From Algisphaera agarilytica (GTDB lineage Bacteria; Planctomycetota; Phycisphaerae; Phycisphaerales; Phycisphaeraceae), in contig NZ_JACHGY010000001.1 in the NCBI RefSeq assembly GCF_014207595.1, positions 1,488,001 through 1,552,000 on the forward strand: DNA of 64,000 bases, read 5' to 3'. Below the pieces are notes generated by a model. The model was given only the letters and a program-made list of their open reading frames with translations. It was not told the origin of the DNA and made no database searches. Positions 4,357 through 29,120 of this stretch are shown here, one piece after another. Position 1 is the stretch's first letter, and each line of letters begins with the position of its first letter. The position numbers were made by a program, and so were the translations under genes.

Positions 4357-5190
4357 TCACCACGGCTCATCTCGGATGAGCACGGGCTCGATCAGCGGGC
4401 CCCAGTACTGGGGGTAAGTCAGGTAGAAATCCTGAAGCCTTTCCGCGAGCGGGTTGCCGTTGCTCAGCGGGTCGAGACGGCGGTCGTAGTCGCTGTAGAA
4501 GATTTCACGTACCGCGGTGGACGGCGACTGGCTGGGGATCGTCACGAAGCTGCCGCCGGACGTGTTGCGGGAGCTGTCCCGGATCGGGCGGTACTCCCCG
4601 CTGCGGTCGTCGTACCACTCTTCATCCTCGATGACGAAGTTCATGAACCGCCAGTCGGTGTCCATCACGGTGTGCCGGTGCCGGATCGACCCGGGGAACA
4701 GGCGTTCCCACATCGCGGGCCCGTCCGGCGAGCTCACAAAGAAACGCATCGATCGGCCGCGCGGATACTCCTGGAAAAACTGGTTCGCCAACTCGCCCGC
4801 TCCCGTGGACCGCCCCGACGCGGCGATCTGCAGGTCATCGCTCGGCTCGATCGGGAAGTAGTCCGAAGGCTCAAACCGCAGCGATGGATTGTCGCCGGGG
4901 AAGAACGTGTCGCGCAATTGCTCGGTGCTGGCGCTGGCGGTCAGCCCCGTGGCGGGCCCGGGCGCTTTGGCCGACCCGCGCCAGGCCTCGTAGCGGTCGA
5001 TCATCATGCCCCGCTGCATCCGCTCCATCGCGAAGCCGAAGTAGATCACCAGGCTCAACACGAACAGGATCAACGGCAACACCAGGACCGCTTCCATCAT
5101 CGCGGCGCCGCGAGCGCGGCGGGGATTTAGGATTTGGGGATTGGGGGTTCGCGTAGCCGCTTGCGGCTTAGCGGTCGACGACTTATGCAT
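4357..5190 (-). CDS. TadE-like pseudopilin protein
   Basis: A protein of about 277 aa with the TadE signature: a basic stretch (NPRRARGAAMMEAVLV) leading into one hydrophobic helix (VLVLPLILFVLSLVIYFGF), then a hydrophilic outer domain. TadE proteins are minor pseudopilins of Flp/Tad-type systems. It is the third gene of a minus-strand set (8128 to 4357). The start is unclear. The ATG at 5190 falls in the loop of an inverted repeat, so the first 20 or so residues are encoded by repeat sequence. The Met pair near 5100 lies within the signature itself, so a start upstream of it is required. No TadA, B or C genes are in the window. Confidence 0.7.
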   Translation of the reverse strand: MHKSSTAKPQAATRTPNPQILNPRRARGAAMMEAVLVLPLILFVLSLVIYFGFAMERMQRGMMIDRYEAWRGSAKAPGPATGLTASASTEQLRDTFFPGDNPSLRFEPSDYFPIEPSDDLQIAASGRSTGAGELANQFFQEYPRGRSMRFFVSSPDGPAMWERLFPGSIRHRHTVMDTDWRFMNFVIEDEEWYDDRSGEYRPIRDSSRNTSGGSFVTIPSQSPSTAVREIFYSDYDRRLDPLSNGNPLAERLQDFYLTYPQYWGPLIEPVLIRDEPW

Positions 5191-5215
5191 TGCGCTAAGC
5201 CGCAAGCGGCTGCGC
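5151..5215. repeat. REP-like inverted repeat, copy 1
   Basis: Arms at 5151-5173 and 5193-5215 (core AGCCGCTTGCGGCTTAGCG) are complementary over 23 bases with one G-T position. A second copy lies at 28143-28197. It is followed by short tandem TCCGAAATC-type units (5221-5258) and preceded by a G/T-rich low-complexity tract. It overlaps the likely start of the TadE-like gene. Confidence 0.8.
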
Positions 5216-5255
5216 CACGTCCGATCCGAAATCCGAAATCTGAAATCCGAAATCA

Positions 5256-7187
5256 CTACTCGTCCTCCAGCATGAGGTCCATGAGCGGCTTGGTCGCCTG
5301 GAGATACGCGGTGATGGCGTTGAGATCGGTTTCTTCGATCCACGGCATCTGCTCGAGCGCTTGAGGTTCTTCGAGCGCTTCCATCCAGCCATCGATATCG
5401 TCGATGGGGGTGAGCTGGGCGTGCCACATCGCGGTCCACAGGTCCCACGAGTGGTTGTTGAACACCTGGGCCTGGGCCAGCGCCACCATCTTCGAATCGG
5501 GTCGTTCGCCGTCGAATTTTTCCGGCCAGAACCGTGCCGCTTTGGGTTGGTGGGCGATGCCGAAGATTTTCAAGGCGTCGTACGAGTCCGAGGATTCGGG
5601 GCTAAATTCATCGACGGTGAAGTTCAACGGGCCGGGCATGCCGCCGCGCTCTTCCGCATCGAAGTTGTAGGGGTTGCGGATCTCGACCTCTTCGCCGACG
5701 TTGATGCCCAACCAGACCAGGTAGTTCAGGAACTGGGTGTCGCCTTCGCCGAGCTCGGGGTCGTCGGATTGGGGAAGCTCTTCTCGCCAGACCTGGTCCT
5801 CGATCTCCAGCAGCGAGGACGTGCCTTGCGTAGGCGGGGATAGCGCACGGCTCCCGGAACGACGGGCCAGGCCCCAGCGGGTAAGGATGGGTTCGCTGAA
5901 GGTGAAGCCGGTGGAGGTTTTGGTCCGCTCGAATTCGAGCGCGAGGTAGAGGCCATACACGATCGAGTCGGGGTCCGATTCGAAGATCGCCTCGGCGGCG
6001 TTGCGGTCGGTGATCCATTCGGGGTCGTAGACGAGTTGGTTGTTGCTGGCGGTCCCGGGGAACGCGCGGTTGATCTTCTGGTTGGCGGCGAAGCTGACGC
6101 GTTCGCTCCATTGGCTGGGCGACAGGGGCGTGGCGTCCGAGGTGATTGTGGGCGGGGTCGGGGCCTCGGAGAAGTTCCGGCCCGATGGTCCACCCAGCGA
6201 CGTCAGCAGGGCGAGCTGCTGCTGGTAGGTTCCGGTGGTATAGTAGGTCTCGATATCCGCCCGCTCGAACTGCCGGGTACTGGGCGGGGAAATCCATCCA
6301 AGCGCGTTGGCGCCGTGCCGTGCGTCGCGGGGGAGTTGGCTGTAGATCGCGTTGCTGACACGCCCGGGCCGACGCTGTCCGAACAACACGTCGAACGGCC
6401 CGCGGTTGTAGAGCGGGTCGTTCTGACCGTCGGGTAGCTGTCCTTCCTGCACCGCCGACTCGAAGTCGTCGAACGCCCCTTCGGTCCACGGCACCTCCGG
6501 CACCCAGGGCAGCAGCAACCCCCCGGCATCCTTGCCGCCTTCACGCTGCGCGATCTGGGCGCCGCGGAATCCGCTCTGCTGTGTGAGCACGGCCAGGTTG
6601 TCCATCGTCGCGCGGTTCACATCCGCCAACGCTTCGATCGCCTGCCAGATTTCTCCGCGTTGACCGGAACTGGATTTGTAAAACGTGGTGCGGGCGATGT
6701 CGTAGTCACCGCCGTTAAACAGTTCGTCGAGCGGCTCGAGGTAGTTGATCTGCGTGACCAGGTTGGGCTGAACGATGTCGCGGACGACCTGATCGACCCA
6801 GTAGTCGTCCGCGTAGCCGATGCGGTTTTGCCGGTCGATCGCGGTGAGTATCGCGTTCTGGTCTTCGAGCGTGTGGGCCACCGCGAGGGGGACCGCGTCG
6901 AGCACGCCGGACAGCGCGATGAGCCGAGACATCTCGACGTTGTTCATGGCGACGGTGTTGAACGACCGCGCCATCCACCGCCCGCCGGAGATCGCGGCGT
7001 TGTCGGCGGCGTTCTGCGTTTCGACCCGCTTGGAGACGTGGTTGCCGACGTTGAAGATGTAGAACACCATCGCCGCGAGCAGGATCAACGAGAGCAACGC
7101 CACGACCATGATCGCGCCGCGCGGCTCGCGGCGGATACCGAGGCGGGGGCGAGTTGATCGGGGGTGGAAGTACTGGCGCGTCGTCAT
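5256..7187 (-). CDS. TadG-like pilus assembly protein, large
   Basis: A 643-aa protein. The N-terminus reads RREPRGAIMVVALLSL and continues as one transmembrane helix (about residues 28-48), then NVGNHVSKRVETQNAADNAAISGGRWMAR. This is the TadG/TadE-like N-terminal pattern in which a membrane-anchored pseudopilin-like helix precedes a long outer domain. The other 590 residues have no motif I recognise. It is the middle gene of three. Its ATG overlaps the stop of the upstream gene by four bases, so the two are probably translationally coupled. The role in a pilus or secretion system is inferred only from the N-terminus and neighbours. Confidence 0.75.
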   Translation of the reverse strand: MTTRQYFHPRSTRPRLGIRREPRGAIMVVALLSLILLAAMVFYIFNVGNHVSKRVETQNAADNAAISGGRWMARSFNTVAMNNVEMSRLIALSGVLDAVPLAVAHTLEDQNAILTAIDRQNRIGYADDYWVDQVVRDIVQPNLVTQINYLEPLDELFNGGDYDIARTTFYKSSSGQRGEIWQAIEALADVNRATMDNLAVLTQQSGFRGAQIAQREGGKDAGGLLLPWVPEVPWTEGAFDDFESAVQEGQLPDGQNDPLYNRGPFDVLFGQRRPGRVSNAIYSQLPRDARHGANALGWISPPSTRQFERADIETYYTTGTYQQQLALLTSLGGPSGRNFSEAPTPPTITSDATPLSPSQWSERVSFAANQKINRAFPGTASNNQLVYDPEWITDRNAAEAIFESDPDSIVYGLYLALEFERTKTSTGFTFSEPILTRWGLARRSGSRALSPPTQGTSSLLEIEDQVWREELPQSDDPELGEGDTQFLNYLVWLGINVGEEVEIRNPYNFDAEERGGMPGPLNFTVDEFSPESSDSYDALKIFGIAHQPKAARFWPEKFDGERPDSKMVALAQAQVFNNHSWDLWTAMWHAQLTPIDDIDGWMEALEEPQALEQMPWIEETDLNAITAYLQATKPLMDLMLEDE

Positions 7188-23139: not shown

Positions 23140-24240
23140 GTGCAGCGCATCCTGATCATTCGGCCATCGGCGCTGGGCGACGTCGCCCGCACCGTGCCCT
23201 GTCTGGCGTCGCTCCGGCGGGCGTATCCCGAGGCCCGGATCGACTGGCTGGTGGGGTCGGCGTTTGTCGATGCCGTGCGGGCCCACCCGGGGCTGACGGG
23301 CGTGATCCCATTCGACCGCAAGAAGCGCTCGGCGGTCTGGCCGATGCTGCGGACGCTGCGACAGACGCGATACGACATGGCCATCGACCTGCAGGGCCTG
23401 GCCCGCTCGGGGTTCTTCGCCTGGGCCAGCCGTGCCAAGCAACGCGTCGGCTACGCCAATGCGCGGGAGCTGGGGTGGCTGGGGTATACCGACAAACACC
23501 TGATCGACGAAAAGCTCCACGCCGCCGACCGCATGCTCCGGCTGATCGACGCGTTGGACGTGCCGCGGGTCAACGATCTGTCGCTGCACGTGCCCGACGA
23601 GGATCAGCAGTGGCTGGATCAGCACCTGGCCGAGCTCGGAGTTTCGCCGGGGCGATACGCGTGTGTCGCGCCAACGGCGCAGTGGGGCTGCAAGTGCTGG
23701 CCGATGCAGCGCTACGCTGAGGTGACCCAGCGGTTGCTTGAGCAGCCGGACATCGACCACGTGTTCGTTCTCGCCGCGCCGCACGAGCAGGCGCGGGTGC
23801 AGGCGGGCTTCACCGCCCTGTCGCCCGAGGAACTCGAGCGCACCGCCACCCCGCCCACCACGGTCGGAAAACTCATGGCCGTGCTCGCCGGAGCGAAACT
23901 GCTGGTGTGCAACGACTCGGCCCCCCTGCACCTGGCCGTCGGCCTCGCCACACCCACCGTCAGCCTCTTCGGGCCGACCGACCCCGCGCTCGTCGGCCCG
24001 CCGCCGCCGGGCTTCTTCACGCCCCCGCTCGGCGACGCGTCTGCCGTGCCGTTGCCCGAAGGCTCTTCCGGCCAGCGCGTGGCCGATCTGATCACTACCG
24101 GCCGGCACCGCGTGTTGCGTGCCCCCTCGGCCGTCGGTCGGACGTTTAACTACCGCGCCCACCGCGACGACGATACGTTGATTTCCGAGTTGACGGTCGA
24201 TGAAGCTTGGTCTGCCATCGATCAAGCGTTACAACCTTAG
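23140..24240 (+). CDS. Glycosyltransferase family 9 (heptosyltransferase-like)
   Basis: A 366-aa GT9-type enzyme, related to lipopolysaccharide heptosyltransferases (WaaC/WaaF). The N-terminus ILIIRPSALGDVARTVPCLASLRRAYPEARIDWLVG is diagnostic. The C-terminal nucleotide-sugar region has LVCNDSAPLHLAVGLATPTVSLFGPTDP. It probably adds a sugar to a cell-envelope glycolipid in the cytoplasm. It starts with GTG at 23140 and has no Shine-Dalgarno; GATATT lies 6 nt upstream. Its 3' end abuts the ECF sigma gene, so the two may be co-transcribed. Confidence 0.92.
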   Translation: MQRILIIRPSALGDVARTVPCLASLRRAYPEARIDWLVGSAFVDAVRAHPGLTGVIPFDRKKRSAVWPMLRTLRQTRYDMAIDLQGLARSGFFAWASRAKQRVGYANARELGWLGYTDKHLIDEKLHAADRMLRLIDALDVPRVNDLSLHVPDEDQQWLDQHLAELGVSPGRYACVAPTAQWGCKCWPMQRYAEVTQRLLEQPDIDHVFVLAAPHEQARVQAGFTALSPEELERTATPPTTVGKLMAVLAGAKLLVCNDSAPLHLAVGLATPTVSLFGPTDPALVGPPPPGFFTPPLGDASAVPLPEGSSGQRVADLITTGRHRVLRAPSAVGRTFNYRAHRDDDTLISELTVDEAWSAIDQALQP

Positions 24241-24242
24241 GG

Positions 24243-24824
24243 GTGGACACCTTCCGGCAACTCGAAGTGCTCAGCGACGAACAGCTCGTCGAACACGCCA
24301 ACCGCGGCGACGCTCAGAGCCCCGCGGCCTTCGAGACGCTCTACCGCCGACACCGCGACACCGTGCTGCGCCTTGCCCGGCGGTACACCCGGGGCGACGA
24401 GGCCCTCGCGCTCGACGCCGCGCAGGAAACCTTCATCTATCTGCTGGGCAAGTTCCCCCCGCCGCCCGAAAACCAGCTGACGCTCACCGCGAAGCTCACC
24501 ACCTTTTTGTTTCCCGTGGCCAGGCATGCCGCACTCTCGGCCACCAAGAAGAAGGCCCGCCTCCGGCTGACCACGGGCGACGCCCTGCCCGAGCCGATCG
24601 CCGAATCCCCCATTCCCCTCGACGACGGCCTCGACGCCCTGCTGGGCCGGCTCAGCGACGAACACTGCGAGGTGGTGCTGCTGCGTTTTGTGGACGACAT
24701 GACGGTCCCCGAGATCGCCCGAGCCCTCGACATCCCGCAGGGCACGGTGAAATCGCGTCTGCACCACGCCGTGGCCCAGCTCCGCCGTGACCCGGCCACG
24801 AAAAAATATTTCGAATTGCCTTGA
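24243..24824 (+). CDS. ECF-type RNA polymerase sigma factor
   Basis: About 193 aa. Region 2 is AFETLYRRHRDTVLRLARRY…DAAQETFIYLLGKF. Region 4 is LSDEHCEVVLLRFVDDMTVPEIARALDIPQGTVKSRLHHAVAQLRRD, with a clear helix-turn-helix. The start is uncertain: GTG at 24243 lies 2 bases past the GT9 stop, and a TTG at 24207 would overlap it. It heads a tight operon: a membrane dockerin protein 67 bases on, then a cohesin-like protein and a VIT-VWA lipoprotein with overlapping starts. The next gene is a plausible membrane anti-sigma partner. Confidence 0.9.
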   Translation: MDTFRQLEVLSDEQLVEHANRGDAQSPAAFETLYRRHRDTVLRLARRYTRGDEALALDAAQETFIYLLGKFPPPPENQLTLTAKLTTFLFPVARHAALSATKKKARLRLTTGDALPEPIAESPIPLDDGLDALLGRLSDEHCEVVLLRFVDDMTVPEIARALDIPQGTVKSRLHHAVAQLRRDPATKKYFELP

Positions 24825-24891
24825 ACGGTTCGCCCCGCTTGCGCCCTTCACCTTCCGAACCCCTCACCGCGCCCGTGCGCCGAGGACTCAC

Positions 24892-25407
24892 ATGACCCAC
24901 CCCGACGACCCCCAACTTCCCGACGACCTGATCGCCGAGCTCAAACGCCGGGACGCTCAGCCGTTTGCCGACACCGACCGGCTCGACGAGCGCATCCGCC
25001 TCGCGATCGATGCGCACTATGCGCCCACGGACCTGGTGGCGACTGCTTCGGCCCCCGCGTCGTGGCGTTTCCGTCGCCGGCTGATCGGAGCTGGCCTGGC
25101 GGCGGCCGCCGCGGTGGGCTTCGTGGTTTGGCTCAACCCGAACACCTTTTCGCCGCCCGCCGATCCGGTCGCGCAGGTCGCCCCATCGCCCGAACTCCCT
25201 CACGACTTCAACCGCGACGGCGCGCTCGACATCCTCGACGTCATGCGGCTGGCAAAACACGTCCAGGACACGCCGCCTTCCGGCCCCCTCGCGGACTCGG
25301 CCGCCGTGTTCGATGTGAACCATGACCAGCGCATCGATGCGCAAGACGTCCAGACGCTCGGCCGATCCATCGTCCGCCTCGCTTCCGAGAAGGACGGTGA
25401 GGTATGA
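24892..25407 (+). CDS. Single-pass membrane protein with a dockerin-like domain (putative anti-sigma)
   Basis: A 171-aa protein in three parts. The N-terminal 60 residues are charged and helical (LPDDLIAELKRRD…LDERIRLAIDAHY) and presumably cytoplasmic. One transmembrane helix spans about 67-87 (LIGAGLAAAAAVGFVVWL). The outer C-terminal region carries two calcium-loop repeats of dockerin type I: DFNRDGALDILDVMRLAKHV and DVNHDQRIDAQDVQTLGR, both with Asp/Asn at 1, 3, 5, 9 and 12. GAGGA lies 5 nt before the ATG at 24892. Its place after an ECF gene suggests an anti-sigma factor, though it lacks the zinc-binding HxxxCxxC motif. Its stop overlaps the next start (ATGA). Confidence 0.82.
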   Translation: MTHPDDPQLPDDLIAELKRRDAQPFADTDRLDERIRLAIDAHYAPTDLVATASAPASWRFRRRLIGAGLAAAAAVGFVVWLNPNTFSPPADPVAQVAPSPELPHDFNRDGALDILDVMRLAKHVQDTPPSGPLADSAAVFDVNHDQRIDAQDVQTLGRSIVRLASEKDGEV

Positions 25408-25919
25408 GAACGCTGGCCGCGATGAGTTTCGTGCTGCTTTGCTTGAGCCTCGCTGTGTCGTTAGCGCCGCCGACGGCATCCGGGGATGTGCAAACCCTGC
25501 CCGACACGCGGCCCGCCGCCGCGGCCTCGCCCTACTTCGAAGCGGTCCCCGTGGTGATCGATCCGCAGGGGCAACCGTTGGCAGCGTATCAGTTCGAGCT
25601 GTCCTCGCCCAACGCCGAGCTCACCATCGTGGGCTTGGAGAACGGCGAGCATCCCGCGTTTGCCGACGCGCCCTTCTACGACACCGACGCGGTCAACCAG
25701 GGCCGGGCCGACCGCATCATCGTTGCCGCCTACTCGCTTCTGCCCGGCGAAGAACTGCCGAATCAGCCAACGCGCGTCGCCACCGTCATGGTGCAGGTGC
25801 AGCTCTCGCCGGATGCCGAGCCGGGCACCGTTGCCGAATATCAACTCGACCTCATCACCGCGGGCAACCCCGCCGGCGAGCCGATCCCCGCCGCCCTTTT
25901 CCGTGGAGCGCAGCCTTGA
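25404..25919 (+). CDS. Secreted cohesin-like domain protein
   Basis: A 171-aa protein with a signal peptide (about 1-27, ending PTASGD). The mature part has the outline of a cohesin or CBM-type jelly roll: VVIDPQGQPLAAYQFELSSP, AELTIVGLENGEHPAF, RIIVAAYSLLPGEELP, VATVMVQVQLSP, YQLDLITAGNPAGEPI. This family-level match is by pattern only. It is encoded directly after a dockerin protein, with its start overlapping that gene's stop, and directly before a lipoprotein whose TTG start overlaps its own stop. A cohesin-dockerin partnership between the two products is an attractive inference. Confidence 0.6.
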   Translation: MRTLAAMSFVLLCLSLAVSLAPPTASGDVQTLPDTRPAAAASPYFEAVPVVIDPQGQPLAAYQFELSSPNAELTIVGLENGEHPAFADAPFYDTDAVNQGRADRIIVAAYSLLPGEELPNQPTRVATVMVQVQLSPDAEPGTVAEYQLDLITAGNPAGEPIPAALFRGAQP

Positions 25920-28141
25920 AACACGTCATTCAACTTTCGATTCTGAGCATCGTAGCCGTACTACTTCTGGTGGGATGCACCACCGAGGAATCGGCGTATC
26001 TCGACCCGACGGTGACGGGACGGTGGCAACAGACCCACGCGAATATGCCGATGACCGACTCCGACAGAGACGGTATTGCGGATTCACGGTGGAACTGGGC
26101 ACCCTTGCGAAACGAATCTCTGACGCATGTCATGGGCGTCAAAATCGTCGATGGCAAGCCCCAGCCCGCTGCTGCCCCCGTCTTCACCACCGTCGCCCCC
26201 GACGAAGAGGTCTGGATCATCGCCACCCCCGGCAATCAAGCGAATCCCGCGGCCCAAGACGACGACACCCCCGGCAGCGGCGCGCTGCTCGCACTGATGC
26301 CGCCCCCAACCGGAGGCGGCGAAGCCGAGAAAGTTCCTGTTCCGCTTGAGCACACCGACGTGCAGGCCCGCGTGGATGCCTACCTCGCCACCGTCGATGT
26401 CACCCAGCAGTTCCGCAACCCCTACGACACCAAGATCGAAGCGGTCTACGTCTTCCCGCTCCCGCAGAACGCCGCCGTGAGCGAGTTCATCATGATCATC
26501 GGCGAACGCAAGATCCGCGGCATCCTCCGCGAGAAAGAAGAAGCCAAGCGTCTCTACGAACAGGCCAAGCACCAGGGCTACAACGCCTCGCTGCTCACCC
26601 AGCAGCGCCCCAACCTCTTCACGCAGAAGGTCGCCAACCTCGAGCCCGGCCAACGCATCGACGTGAAGCTCAGCTACTTCCAGACCCTTGCCTACGCCGA
26701 CGGCGTGTACAGCTTCGTGTTCCCCATGGTCGTCGGGCCCCGGTTTAACCCGCCCGCCACGACCGCCACCGGCCAAGGGGTCGGGGCCGTGGGCTACGGC
26801 CGCACCGGCGCCTCCGGCCAATCCACCGAGGTGTCCTATCTCCGCCCCAACCAGCGCACCGCCCACGACATCGACCTTTCGCTCACCCTCGAGGCGGGCC
26901 TGCCCGTTGAAGAATTCCGCAGCCACCACCACGACGTCACCACCACCCGCCACGACGACGGCTCGATCACCTACGCGTTGGCCGACCACTCCGACAACCG
27001 GATCCCCAACCGCGACTTCGTGCTGTCCTACCGCGTGGCGGGCGATGACATCCGCACCAACGTGCTCACCCACACCGACGAAGCCACCAGCGAGAACTAT
27101 TTCACCATGATGCTGATCCCCCCGGCCGAGCTCGGCTCGCTCGAACGTCAGCCGATGGAGATGGTGTTTGTCATCGACTGCTCGGGCTCGATGGGCGGCG
27201 AGCCGATCGCCCAGGCCAAAGCTGCGATCGTGGCGGCGCTCGATCAACTCGGGCCAGACGACACGTTCCAGATCATCCGCTTCTCGTCGGACGCCTCGCA
27301 GCTCGGGCCCCAGCCAATCGCGGCGACTGACAAGAACAGGCGACACGCCAAACGCTACGTCCGCAACCTCCACAGCGGCGGCGGCACCATGATGATCGAG
27401 GGCATCAAGGCGGCGCTCGACTTCCCGCACGACCCCGAACGCTTCCGCGTGGTCACCTTCCTTACCGACGGCTTCATCGGTAACGACCGAGACATCATCG
27501 GTGAAGTGTCCAAACGCGTCGGCCCGGCCCGCATCTTCTCCTTCGGCGTCGGCTCCTCGCCCAACCGCTACCTCATGCAGCGCATGGCCAAGCAGGGACG
27601 AGGCGCCGCGGCCTACCTCGGGCTCAACGACGACGCCGCCGCGGTGATGGACACCTACTTCGACCGCGTCAGCCGACCCGCGCTCACCGACGTGGCCATC
27701 CACTTCGGCAACGCCGAGGTCAGCGACGTCTACCCCGCGACGCTGCCCGACCTGTTCGTCGGCCGACCTGTCGTAGTCACCGGCAAGTACACCGGCACGC
27801 TCGACCACGTCCGCGTCGGCGGGTTTGCCGGGGGCGAGAAACGCGTGGCCACCATCGCGCCGCCCGACGACAACGCGACCCACCCCGCGCTCGCCCAGGT
27901 CTGGGCCCGCCAACGCATCGCCGACCTCTCGGATCAGATGACCTTTGCGGGTGTACGTTTGCAGAAAGAACTCGCGACCGAGATCCTCGACACCGCGCTG
28001 AGCCACTCGCTCATGAGCGACTACACCGCGTTCGTCGCCATCGACGCCGCCCACGTCACGGCCGGGAGCAGCGGCGTGACTGTCCACCACCCCGTACCCG
28101 TACCCGACGGCGTGCGTTACGACACCACAGTCGCCAAGTAA
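25916..28141 (+). CDS. VIT and von Willebrand factor A domain lipoprotein
   Basis: A 741-aa protein, lipid-anchored (signal ending LLLVGC, Cys about residue 21). A calcium-loop-like DSDRDGIADS lies near residue 45. The VIT domain covers about 130-280 (QARVDAYLATVDVTQQFRNPYD, FPLPQNAAVSEF). The VWA domain starts near 417 with an intact MIDAS: FVIDCSGSMGG, HSGGGTMM and FLTDGF. The start is a TTG at 25916, sharing TTGA with the upstream stop. GGAG is 7 nt upstream, and it is the only start that gives the lipoprotein signal. Such proteins are surface adhesion or assembly factors in many bacteria. It ends the sigma-factor operon. Confidence 0.93.
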   Translation: MKHVIQLSILSIVAVLLLVGCTTEESAYLDPTVTGRWQQTHANMPMTDSDRDGIADSRWNWAPLRNESLTHVMGVKIVDGKPQPAAAPVFTTVAPDEEVWIIATPGNQANPAAQDDDTPGSGALLALMPPPTGGGEAEKVPVPLEHTDVQARVDAYLATVDVTQQFRNPYDTKIEAVYVFPLPQNAAVSEFIMIIGERKIRGILREKEEAKRLYEQAKHQGYNASLLTQQRPNLFTQKVANLEPGQRIDVKLSYFQTLAYADGVYSFVFPMVVGPRFNPPATTATGQGVGAVGYGRTGASGQSTEVSYLRPNQRTAHDIDLSLTLEAGLPVEEFRSHHHDVTTTRHDDGSITYALADHSDNRIPNRDFVLSYRVAGDDIRTNVLTHTDEATSENYFTMMLIPPAELGSLERQPMEMVFVIDCSGSMGGEPIAQAKAAIVAALDQLGPDDTFQIIRFSSDASQLGPQPIAATDKNRRHAKRYVRNLHSGGGTMMIEGIKAALDFPHDPERFRVVTFLTDGFIGNDRDIIGEVSKRVGPARIFSFGVGSSPNRYLMQRMAKQGRGAAAYLGLNDDAAAVMDTYFDRVSRPALTDVAIHFGNAEVSDVYPATLPDLFVGRPVVVTGKYTGTLDHVRVGGFAGGEKRVATIAPPDDNATHPALAQVWARQRIADLSDQMTFAGVRLQKELATEILDTALSHSLMSDYTAFVAIDAAHVTAGSSGVTVHHPVPVPDGVRYDTTVAK

Positions 28142-28222: not shown

Positions 28223-29044
28223 TTACTCCGCCGTGAGCACGGCCGTCCGCACCGCGTCGAGGATGGCTTGCAGCTTCGCCTGCATCTCCGGCTGGTCGGC
28301 GTAGAGGTACTCGCGCATCTGGTCCAGACGCTTGATCGTCGCGGGGCGGAACACCACGCCTTCGGGGAGCTCGGGGGTGTCGGGCATCAGCGCCGCGCCG
28401 CCGGCCAGGTCGCCCGAGAGCACCGCCGCGAGCGCGTGGCCCGTGCGGGTGGGCGTGTCGTCGACGGTGCCGAGCAGCGCGAACTGCTGACGGGCTTCGC
28501 GGTAGTAGCCGTGGTTGAGCAGCGCCCACGCATCGTCGCGGTGCGCTTCGGGGACGACGACGGTTTCGACCGCGGTGACCTCGATGTCCTGGGCCAACAC
28601 CGGCTGGAGGTCGATCGATGGGGCGCGTCGGGCCGAAGACTCGTCCCGGGCGTTGGGGTTGGTGAAGGTCTGGGGCGGGTTGTAGACCGGCGGGTCGTAG
28701 GTGACGTACGGCCGAACGACGCCGATGGCTTTTTCGTAGCGCGGGGTGTAGCGGTCGTAGCCGTACCGGTACCCGTCGCGGTAGGAGAAGCTCGGCACGG
28801 GCCGTAGCGGACGCACGACGCCGATGGCCTTCTCGCTCTCGGCATACCGCCCGACGCGCACCGCTTCGCCGCGGAATGTGCGCAGCGGGCGCTCGGTGAT
28901 CACCACGGTCTGCGACCGCCCGGTGTCGAGCGCCTCGGCGTCCGCCTCGACCTGCAGCTGGGCCGACGACATCGTCGCGGGCCACGCCAACAAACCGGCC
29001 ACGGCGAGCCGGGCCATCCATCCGAATTCACAACGGGTTTTCAT
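28223..29044 (-). CDS. Secreted protein with two EKAIGVVRP repeats
   Basis: A 273-aa protein with a signal peptide (about 1-28, ending ATMSSA). The N-terminal part has EKAIGVVRP twice, flanking a Tyr/Arg-rich stretch (YRDGYRYGYDRYTPRY). The C-terminal half (about 150-270) is helical, with AWALLNHGYYREARQQFALL and RTGHALAAVLSGDLAGGAALM. This looks like two or three divergent TPR-like helix pairs. The ATG at 29044 has GGAGA about 7 nt upstream. No known family. It is the only gene on its transcript, ending next to a REP-like repeat. Confidence 0.75.
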   Translation of the reverse strand: MKTRCEFGWMARLAVAGLLAWPATMSSAQLQVEADAEALDTGRSQTVVITERPLRTFRGEAVRVGRYAESEKAIGVVRPLRPVPSFSYRDGYRYGYDRYTPRYEKAIGVVRPYVTYDPPVYNPPQTFTNPNARDESSARRAPSIDLQPVLAQDIEVTAVETVVVPEAHRDDAWALLNHGYYREARQQFALLGTVDDTPTRTGHALAAVLSGDLAGGAALMPDTPELPEGVVFRPATIKRLDQMREYLYADQPEMQAKLQAILDAVRTAVLTAE

Positions 29045-29120
29045 CTCAATATCTCCAGGCAACGGCAAAACTCCATGCCCCTTGACCCACCCGGGCGATT
29101 GAACGCGCTTCACGGGCTAC

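Follow-up and report, generated by a model that had tools for sequence, protein, structure and literature searches.

Here we describe a four-gene locus of the planctomycete Algisphaera agarilytica that encodes an extracytoplasmic function (ECF) sigma factor, a membrane protein tipped with a type I dockerin (dock), an exported protein with a predicted cohesin fold (coh) and a lipoprotein with VIT and VWA domains (vit). The locus lies in a stretch of 64,000 nucleotides (contig NZ_JACHGY010000001.1, positions 1,488,001 to 1,552,000 of the forward strand), which is referred to as the window and in which the coordinates listed below are counted. The four genes had been proposed from the letters of the window alone (the original prediction), and our analysis confirmed them at the positions then given, together with the ATGA (25404-25407) and TTGA (25916-25919) overlaps that couple dock to coh and coh to vit. 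Related loci are designated by numbers with the prefix L and carry coordinates of their own. The features of the window locus are as follows:

24243-24824, + strand: ECF sigma factor gene (193 residues, GTG start)
24822-24848, + strand: putative ECF promoter of dock, TGAAC-N16-GCCCTT, identified as a motif match
24892-25407, + strand: dock, dockerin-tipped membrane protein and proposed anti-sigma factor (171 residues, ATG start)
24892-25080, + strand: dock residues 1-63, cytoplasmic segment, a short putative anti-sigma domain with RRR at its end
25081-25134, + strand: dock residues 64-81, transmembrane segment, from the hydropathy of the translated sequence and the RRR just before it
25201-25368, + strand: dock residues 104-159, type I dockerin, from Pfam and a genome scan; its calcium loops span 25204-25239 and 25312-25347
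25404-25919, + strand: coh, exported cohesin-fold protein (171 residues, signal peptide at about residues 1-27)
25524-25907, + strand: coh residues 41-168, cohesin-fold domain, the range aligned to solved cohesins by VIA-align
25916-28141, + strand: vit, VIT-VWA lipoprotein (741 residues, TTG start), with VIT at 26345-26677 and VWA at 27158-27610

The first gene product combines regions 2 and 4 of an ECF sigma factor in a protein of about 190 residues (Pfam Sigma70_r2, 1.7e-9, and Sigma70_r4, 2.5e-13, both over the cut-off) and reached 68.4 bits against TIGR02937 (cut-off 42.9), in agreement with the original prediction. The second had been read as a single-pass membrane protein with two type I dockerin loops, and this reading held: it exceeded the curated cut-off of Dockerin_1 (PF00404; E = 1.1e-8, 35.5 bits, cut-off 22.9) and has two calcium-binding loops, DFNRDGALDILD and DVNHDQRIDAQD. 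It is the top scorer among 19 dockerin matches in the genome. Of 58 distinct dock proteins, 46 carry the two calcium loops, 9 a single loop and 3 neither; in L077 (4372-4704) the loops of the dockerin are set apart by a long insert.

The exported protein belongs to an otherwise unannotated family with the conserved core IVGIEGGEH...PPYYDP, which a cohesin reading explains. It had no match in Pfam and so did not reach the cut-off of the Cohesin model (PF00963), whereas a divergent homologue in the same position (L113) passed it (24.9 vs 24.1). Searches of the PDB with the single sequence and with the deeper profile A3 gave no match, and profile A1 returned two sequences at E<=10, both of them cohesins (E 1 and 1.3). 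The identity of the protein was decided by fold search. The AlphaFold model of coh (predicted local distance difference test score, pLDDT, 91.4; predicted template modelling score, pTM, 0.82) has the jelly-roll fold of cohesins: the top 22 Foldseek matches were all cohesins, just one of them with E <0.001, and the top 38 rows of VIA-align were likewise all cohesins, with a best Z of 9.2 (115 residues, root-mean-square deviation 3.0). The sequence evidence for a cohesin is weak but specific and that from the predicted structure is strong. The original prediction had seen a cohesin-like pattern in the secreted protein and had named the fold as its check, and the predicted structure came out on its side.

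A Pfam scan of the genome found no cohesin over the cut-off; the genome has one copy of the coh family and no other detectable cohesin. It also holds 18 further dockerin matches, as might be expected if coh were part of a scaffold, like that of cellulosomes, which collects the other dockerin proteins of the genome; but coh is a single domain and no scaffold, it is always accompanied by its own dockerin gene, and most of the other dockerins that were inspected differ in kind, having GNGVVDAADYTVWQD repeats followed by a PEP-CTERM tail. This reading was rejected as highly improbable, since no other cohesin was found in the genome and the dockerins elsewhere differ in kind. The PEP-CTERM protein family with GNGVVDAADYTVWQD-type dockerins in this genome is exemplified by L003 and L005-L008, and no cohesin partner was found there.

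The module was recovered from 59 distinct loci, the window included (coh was present in 27 of 151 related genomes, and a scan of named genomes added the others), and the recurrence of this gene set is not due to chance. Most loci are from Phycisphaerae and Planctomycetaceae (including Fuerstiella), and others from Verrucomicrobia and one metagenome-assembled genome of Fermentibacteria; an Acidobacteria-labelled contig groups with Verrucomicrobia in the sigma factor tree. The dock gene stands 5' of coh at 58 of the 59 loci, the exception (L087) being truncated by the end of its contig, and vit is present at 51 of the 54 loci with enough downstream DNA and truly absent from L057, L058 and L059. 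At L058 (4562-6659) the order is dock, coh, sigma, and the locus has no VIT-VWA gene and is adjoined by a metal-type ABC transporter set. In an even phylum sample of 392 genomes, coh was found in 33, and all 22 full-length dock matches below 1e-10 adjoin a coh match; coh was not found without a dock gene where the contigs allow.

That the dockerin and the cohesin belong together is suggested by loci at which the two are joined. At L052, L057 and L059, dock and coh are fused in one reading frame, and it is these three members, and no others, that have neither calcium loop. L057 and L059 are sisters in the sigma factor tree and L052 lies elsewhere, so the fusion arose in at least two lineages. 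With the cohesin permanently tied and the loops gone in these lineages, we infer that the cohesin acts as a sensory module that plugs in, and not as a signal that has to dissociate; in the unfused forms, calcium would serve the docking. At L088, dock and coh are in frame with one stop codon between them and were modelled as a read-through product (stop as Gly) from a mixed alignment. The model reached a pTM of 0.76 over 254 residues, 27 of which, mostly linker, have a pLDDT <50; by our own estimate, a dockerin without a confident placement on the cohesin would give a pTM near 0.5. Its dockerin part aligns to the solved dockerin 8ajy_B with a Z of 7.2. The two fusion lineages and the confident predicted two-domain arrangement indirectly support binding of the pair.

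Cohesins have a jelly-roll fold akin to that of carbohydrate-binding modules, and the fold may have been taken up for another use, such as binding of glycans or of the VIT-VWA protein, while the dockerin binds another partner or none and the genes are neighbours by shared regulation. Such a use would fit the kinship of the folds and the lack of one or both calcium loops in about a fifth of the dockerins. We consider it distinctly unlikely in view of the dock-coh fusions in two lineages, the confident docking predicted for the L088 read-through product, the occurrence of coh as a single copy in a genome with no other Pfam cohesin, and the failure to find coh without its dockerin gene where contigs allow.

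The original prediction had ascribed to dock the position and topology of an anti-sigma factor, and both were found. A sigma factor gene is adjacent at 51 of the 57 loci that are not cut short (42 on the same strand, 9 divergent), and in each of the six genomes that lack a neighbouring sigma factor gene, a single close homologue located elsewhere stands out (E 1e-45 to 1e-90, against 1e-29 or weaker for the runner-up). The dock sequence begins with 63 residues that end in RRR and lack a zinc motif, followed by one transmembrane segment; the RRR before this segment predicts, by the positive-inside rule, that the N-terminus is inside and the dockerin outside. Proximity to the sigma factor, a single transmembrane segment and a predicted inward N-terminus make up the general layout of an anti-sigma factor. 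In the sigma factor tree, many deep forks of which are open, the window sigma factor and those of the other window-type loci form a single clade (support 99/100). At L047 (4323-4907, the same as L085 3781-4365), the sigma factor gene is broken by an in-frame stop and is a pseudogene or contains a sequence error.

Dyad counting 5' of the sigma factor genes yielded the motif GAACCT-N15-CACT, which occurs in its exact form 14 times in 549 kb, 12 times just 5' of sigma or dock. Sites 5' of dock scored at least 9/10 in 32 of 58 loci (expected 1.4) and at least 8/10 in 53 of them (expected 12), and with the same scoring the enrichment 5' of vit was no better than chance. The dock promoter is kept in those Planctomycetaceae whose sigma factor gene is divergent or unlinked. 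In the window, the -35 element begins with the stop codon of the sigma factor gene (TGA, 24822-24824); this double use of TGA is a caveat for the same-strand loci, not for the divergent ones. The promoter variant common in Phycisphaerae has two matches in the genome, one of which is the window copy; the second (L121) lies between two transporter genes, at their junction, and is probably due to chance.

The cytoplasmic segment of dock carries the pattern LP..L...L...vP..vD..i...A, conserved in family alignment A6, and 25 of 40 family members gave weak matches to the NCBIfam model 'antisigma' (best 2.8e-5). A search with the window-type segment found no meaningful solved relative; the best match was a methyltransferase and was taken as chance. 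The class I zinc motif C..HX3CX2C is absent from the window dock and invariant in seven divergent members: at L108, L109 and L113-L117, a protein with a C..HX3CX2C domain occupies the dock position beside an ECF sigma factor gene and a cohesin-like gene. In these zinc-type proteins the zinc domain is followed by a transmembrane segment and, in most, by a recognisable dockerin; the zinc domain gave profile matches to ChrR (4e-5), DdvA, RsiW and RsrA, and the protein of L114 unites zf-HC2 (1.8e-9) and Dockerin_1 (7.6e-9). The zinc-type proteins of L113 (2800-3936), L114 (3029-4108) and L115 (2228-3373) have a long coiled coil between membrane and dockerin, which would keep the dockerin well away from the membrane.

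Position, topology, linkage to one sigma factor clade, an ECF promoter directly in front and the zinc-domain proteins of the divergent loci together support, at the level of sequence, a role of dock as an anti-sigma factor, whose cytoplasmic segment would bind the sigma factor. The same arrangement could arise if dock did no more than anchor the cohesin and the lipoprotein in the membrane, and the sigma factor controlled the complex as a target without being inhibited by dock: the window-type segment is short and has neither a zinc motif nor a strong anti-sigma match, and an ECF promoter before dock is expected of any target operon. An anchor would, however, have no need of a conserved cytoplasmic segment, nor would it explain the weak anti-sigma matches in 25 of 40 members, the finding that almost all genomes with the module have a sigma factor gene, or divergent homologues that combine, in the same position, a zinc anti-sigma domain with the same transmembrane-dockerin layout. 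We therefore regard the anchor as unlikely.

The vit protein has a VIT domain (6.5e-36), a VWA_3 domain (3e-20; both Pfam) and a lipobox LVGC, and is thus the VIT-VWA lipoprotein that had been proposed. It resembles TIGR03788, the marine proteobacterial sortase target, in having VIT and VWA over most of its length, and differs in being a predicted lipoprotein and in scoring below the curated cut-off (499.6 bits; cut-off 551.65). The original prediction had also pointed to a calcium-loop-like DSDRDG in vit. A similar motif precedes the VIT domain in just 2 of 51 orthologues and is consequently not a conserved part of the system, so that this element of the earlier interpretation fell, whereas its cohesin fold (in the predicted structure), its anti-sigma role and its pairing (through the fusions and the L088 model) gained support. 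At two zinc-type loci, L115 (2-577) and L117 (4927-6558), a YfbK-type VWA protein is encoded 3' of the cohesin gene and replaces the VIT-VWA lipoprotein, a pattern that points to VWA surface proteins as a common output or partner; at a third, L116, the gene after that of the cohesin (4956-6185) encodes a DUF4349 protein. The window locus is flanked by a glycosyltransferase family 9 gene (23140-24240), which ends 2 bases before the start codon of the sigma factor gene and has a counterpart close 5' of sigma at L047 but not at most loci, and by an exported-looking protein of 296 residues on the - strand (28226-29113), which converges on vit and has no Pfam match.

We propose, with a probability of about 0.72, that the locus is an ECF module in which a single-pass anti-sigma factor bears an outer type I dockerin onto which a separately encoded, exported cohesin is plugged, in a manner like that of RseA and RseB. 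The cohesin would plug onto the dockerin outside the inner membrane, and would form a detachable extracytoplasmic module of the anti-sigma factor with a role like that of RseB on RseA. In the cell, binding of the pair would probably depend on calcium. A signal acting on the cohesin-dockerin assembly would expose the anti-sigma factor to cleavage or shield it, and proteolysis would release the sigma factor, which would then transcribe its own inhibitor together with coh and vit from the ECF promoter before dock; the VIT-VWA lipoprotein may serve as output or as sensor. M50 proteases are present in the window genome, likewise in 14 of 14 control genomes.

Several observations weigh against this proposal. 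The cytoplasmic segment of the window dock lacks a zinc motif and has no family match over the cut-off in Pfam or NCBIfam. Zinc-type and window-type segments share vP..vD..i only (hhalign probability 76, 18 columns), so that what the zinc-type loci say about the window is something we infer, though reasonably. The window promoter copy is weak, at 7/10 against the strict consensus, and fits the Phycisphaerae variant. The pTM of 0.76 for L088 was read without a negative control or interface coordinates, and the model is accordingly support for docking, not proof. Finally, at least one calcium loop is missing from 12 of the 58 dockerins, and calcium-dependent docking can thus not be universal.

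In the RpoE-RseA-RseB system of E. coli, the sigma factor gene is followed by that of a single-pass anti-sigma factor and then by that of an exported protein which partners the periplasmic domain of the anti-sigma factor (PMC8103513), and rseA is additionally transcribed from a second sigma-E promoter (PMC8595263). The gene layout here is the same, and the proposed anti-sigma gene likewise has its own ECF promoter. The joint, however, is a dockerin and the partner a predicted cohesin, and the fourth gene encodes a VIT-VWA lipoprotein and is not rseC. RseB is not known to be a cohesin, and coh, with its predicted cohesin fold, has no RseB family match in Pfam or NCBIfam; the resemblance would be one of layout and role. 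In the SigI-RsgI system of Clostridium thermocellum, from organisms that use cohesin and dockerin, a membrane anti-sigma factor also carries an extracellular module (PMC4711584, PMC6056542, PMC11557425), but in RsgI the module that senses polysaccharide is part of the protein itself, and the genes controlled are those of the cellulosome. The window sigma factor is of the ECF type, and dock, which has no RsgI domain match (Pfam, NCBIfam), has a dockerin for its ectodomain and a partner encoded by a gene of its own. With the type I pairs of cellulosomes (e.g. 3ul4 and 6kgc) the locus shares the predicted cohesin fold and a canonical two-loop dockerin; it differs in having one cohesin and one dockerin in a sigma factor operon, with no scaffoldin and no enzymes, and a coh too divergent for the Pfam model. 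Divergent family members with the C..HX3CX2C domain match the structures of ChrR, RsrA and RsiW, unlike the window dock, whose short non-zinc segment comes closer in length to the class II anti-sigma domains, for example that of CnrY (PMC7406223).

In the open-licence literature, outside which many journals lie, no paper was found in which dockerins are connected with anti-sigma factors other than clostridial RsgI; dockerin together with anti-sigma or ECF sigma factors appeared in papers on clostridial cellulosomes only, and the titles and abstracts on non-cellulosomal cohesin-dockerin pairs made no link to a sigma factor. An ECF sigma/anti-sigma pair with this extracytoplasmic coupling is thus not described in the literature searched.

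The cohesin-dockerin joint is known chiefly for holding cellulose-digesting complexes together, and to our knowledge, cohesins and dockerins outside cellulosomes are mostly without assigned functions. For a non-cellulosomal pair, this locus provides a function that can be tested, in which the two domains would plug a separately produced extracytoplasmic module into an anti-sigma factor, an arrangement kept across more than one phylum; the cohesin and the dockerin are moreover paired one-to-one and come with a promoter as read-out. More tentatively, and at somewhat less than even odds, such docking may be a general signalling joint in Planctomycetota and Verrucomicrobiota, where a detachable cohesin sensor would let calcium-dependent assembly in the envelope directly set sigma factor activity and the VIT-VWA output. 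If the module works as proposed, ECF signalling would gain a type of input not seen before, and an outside signal would reach gene control by an undescribed route.

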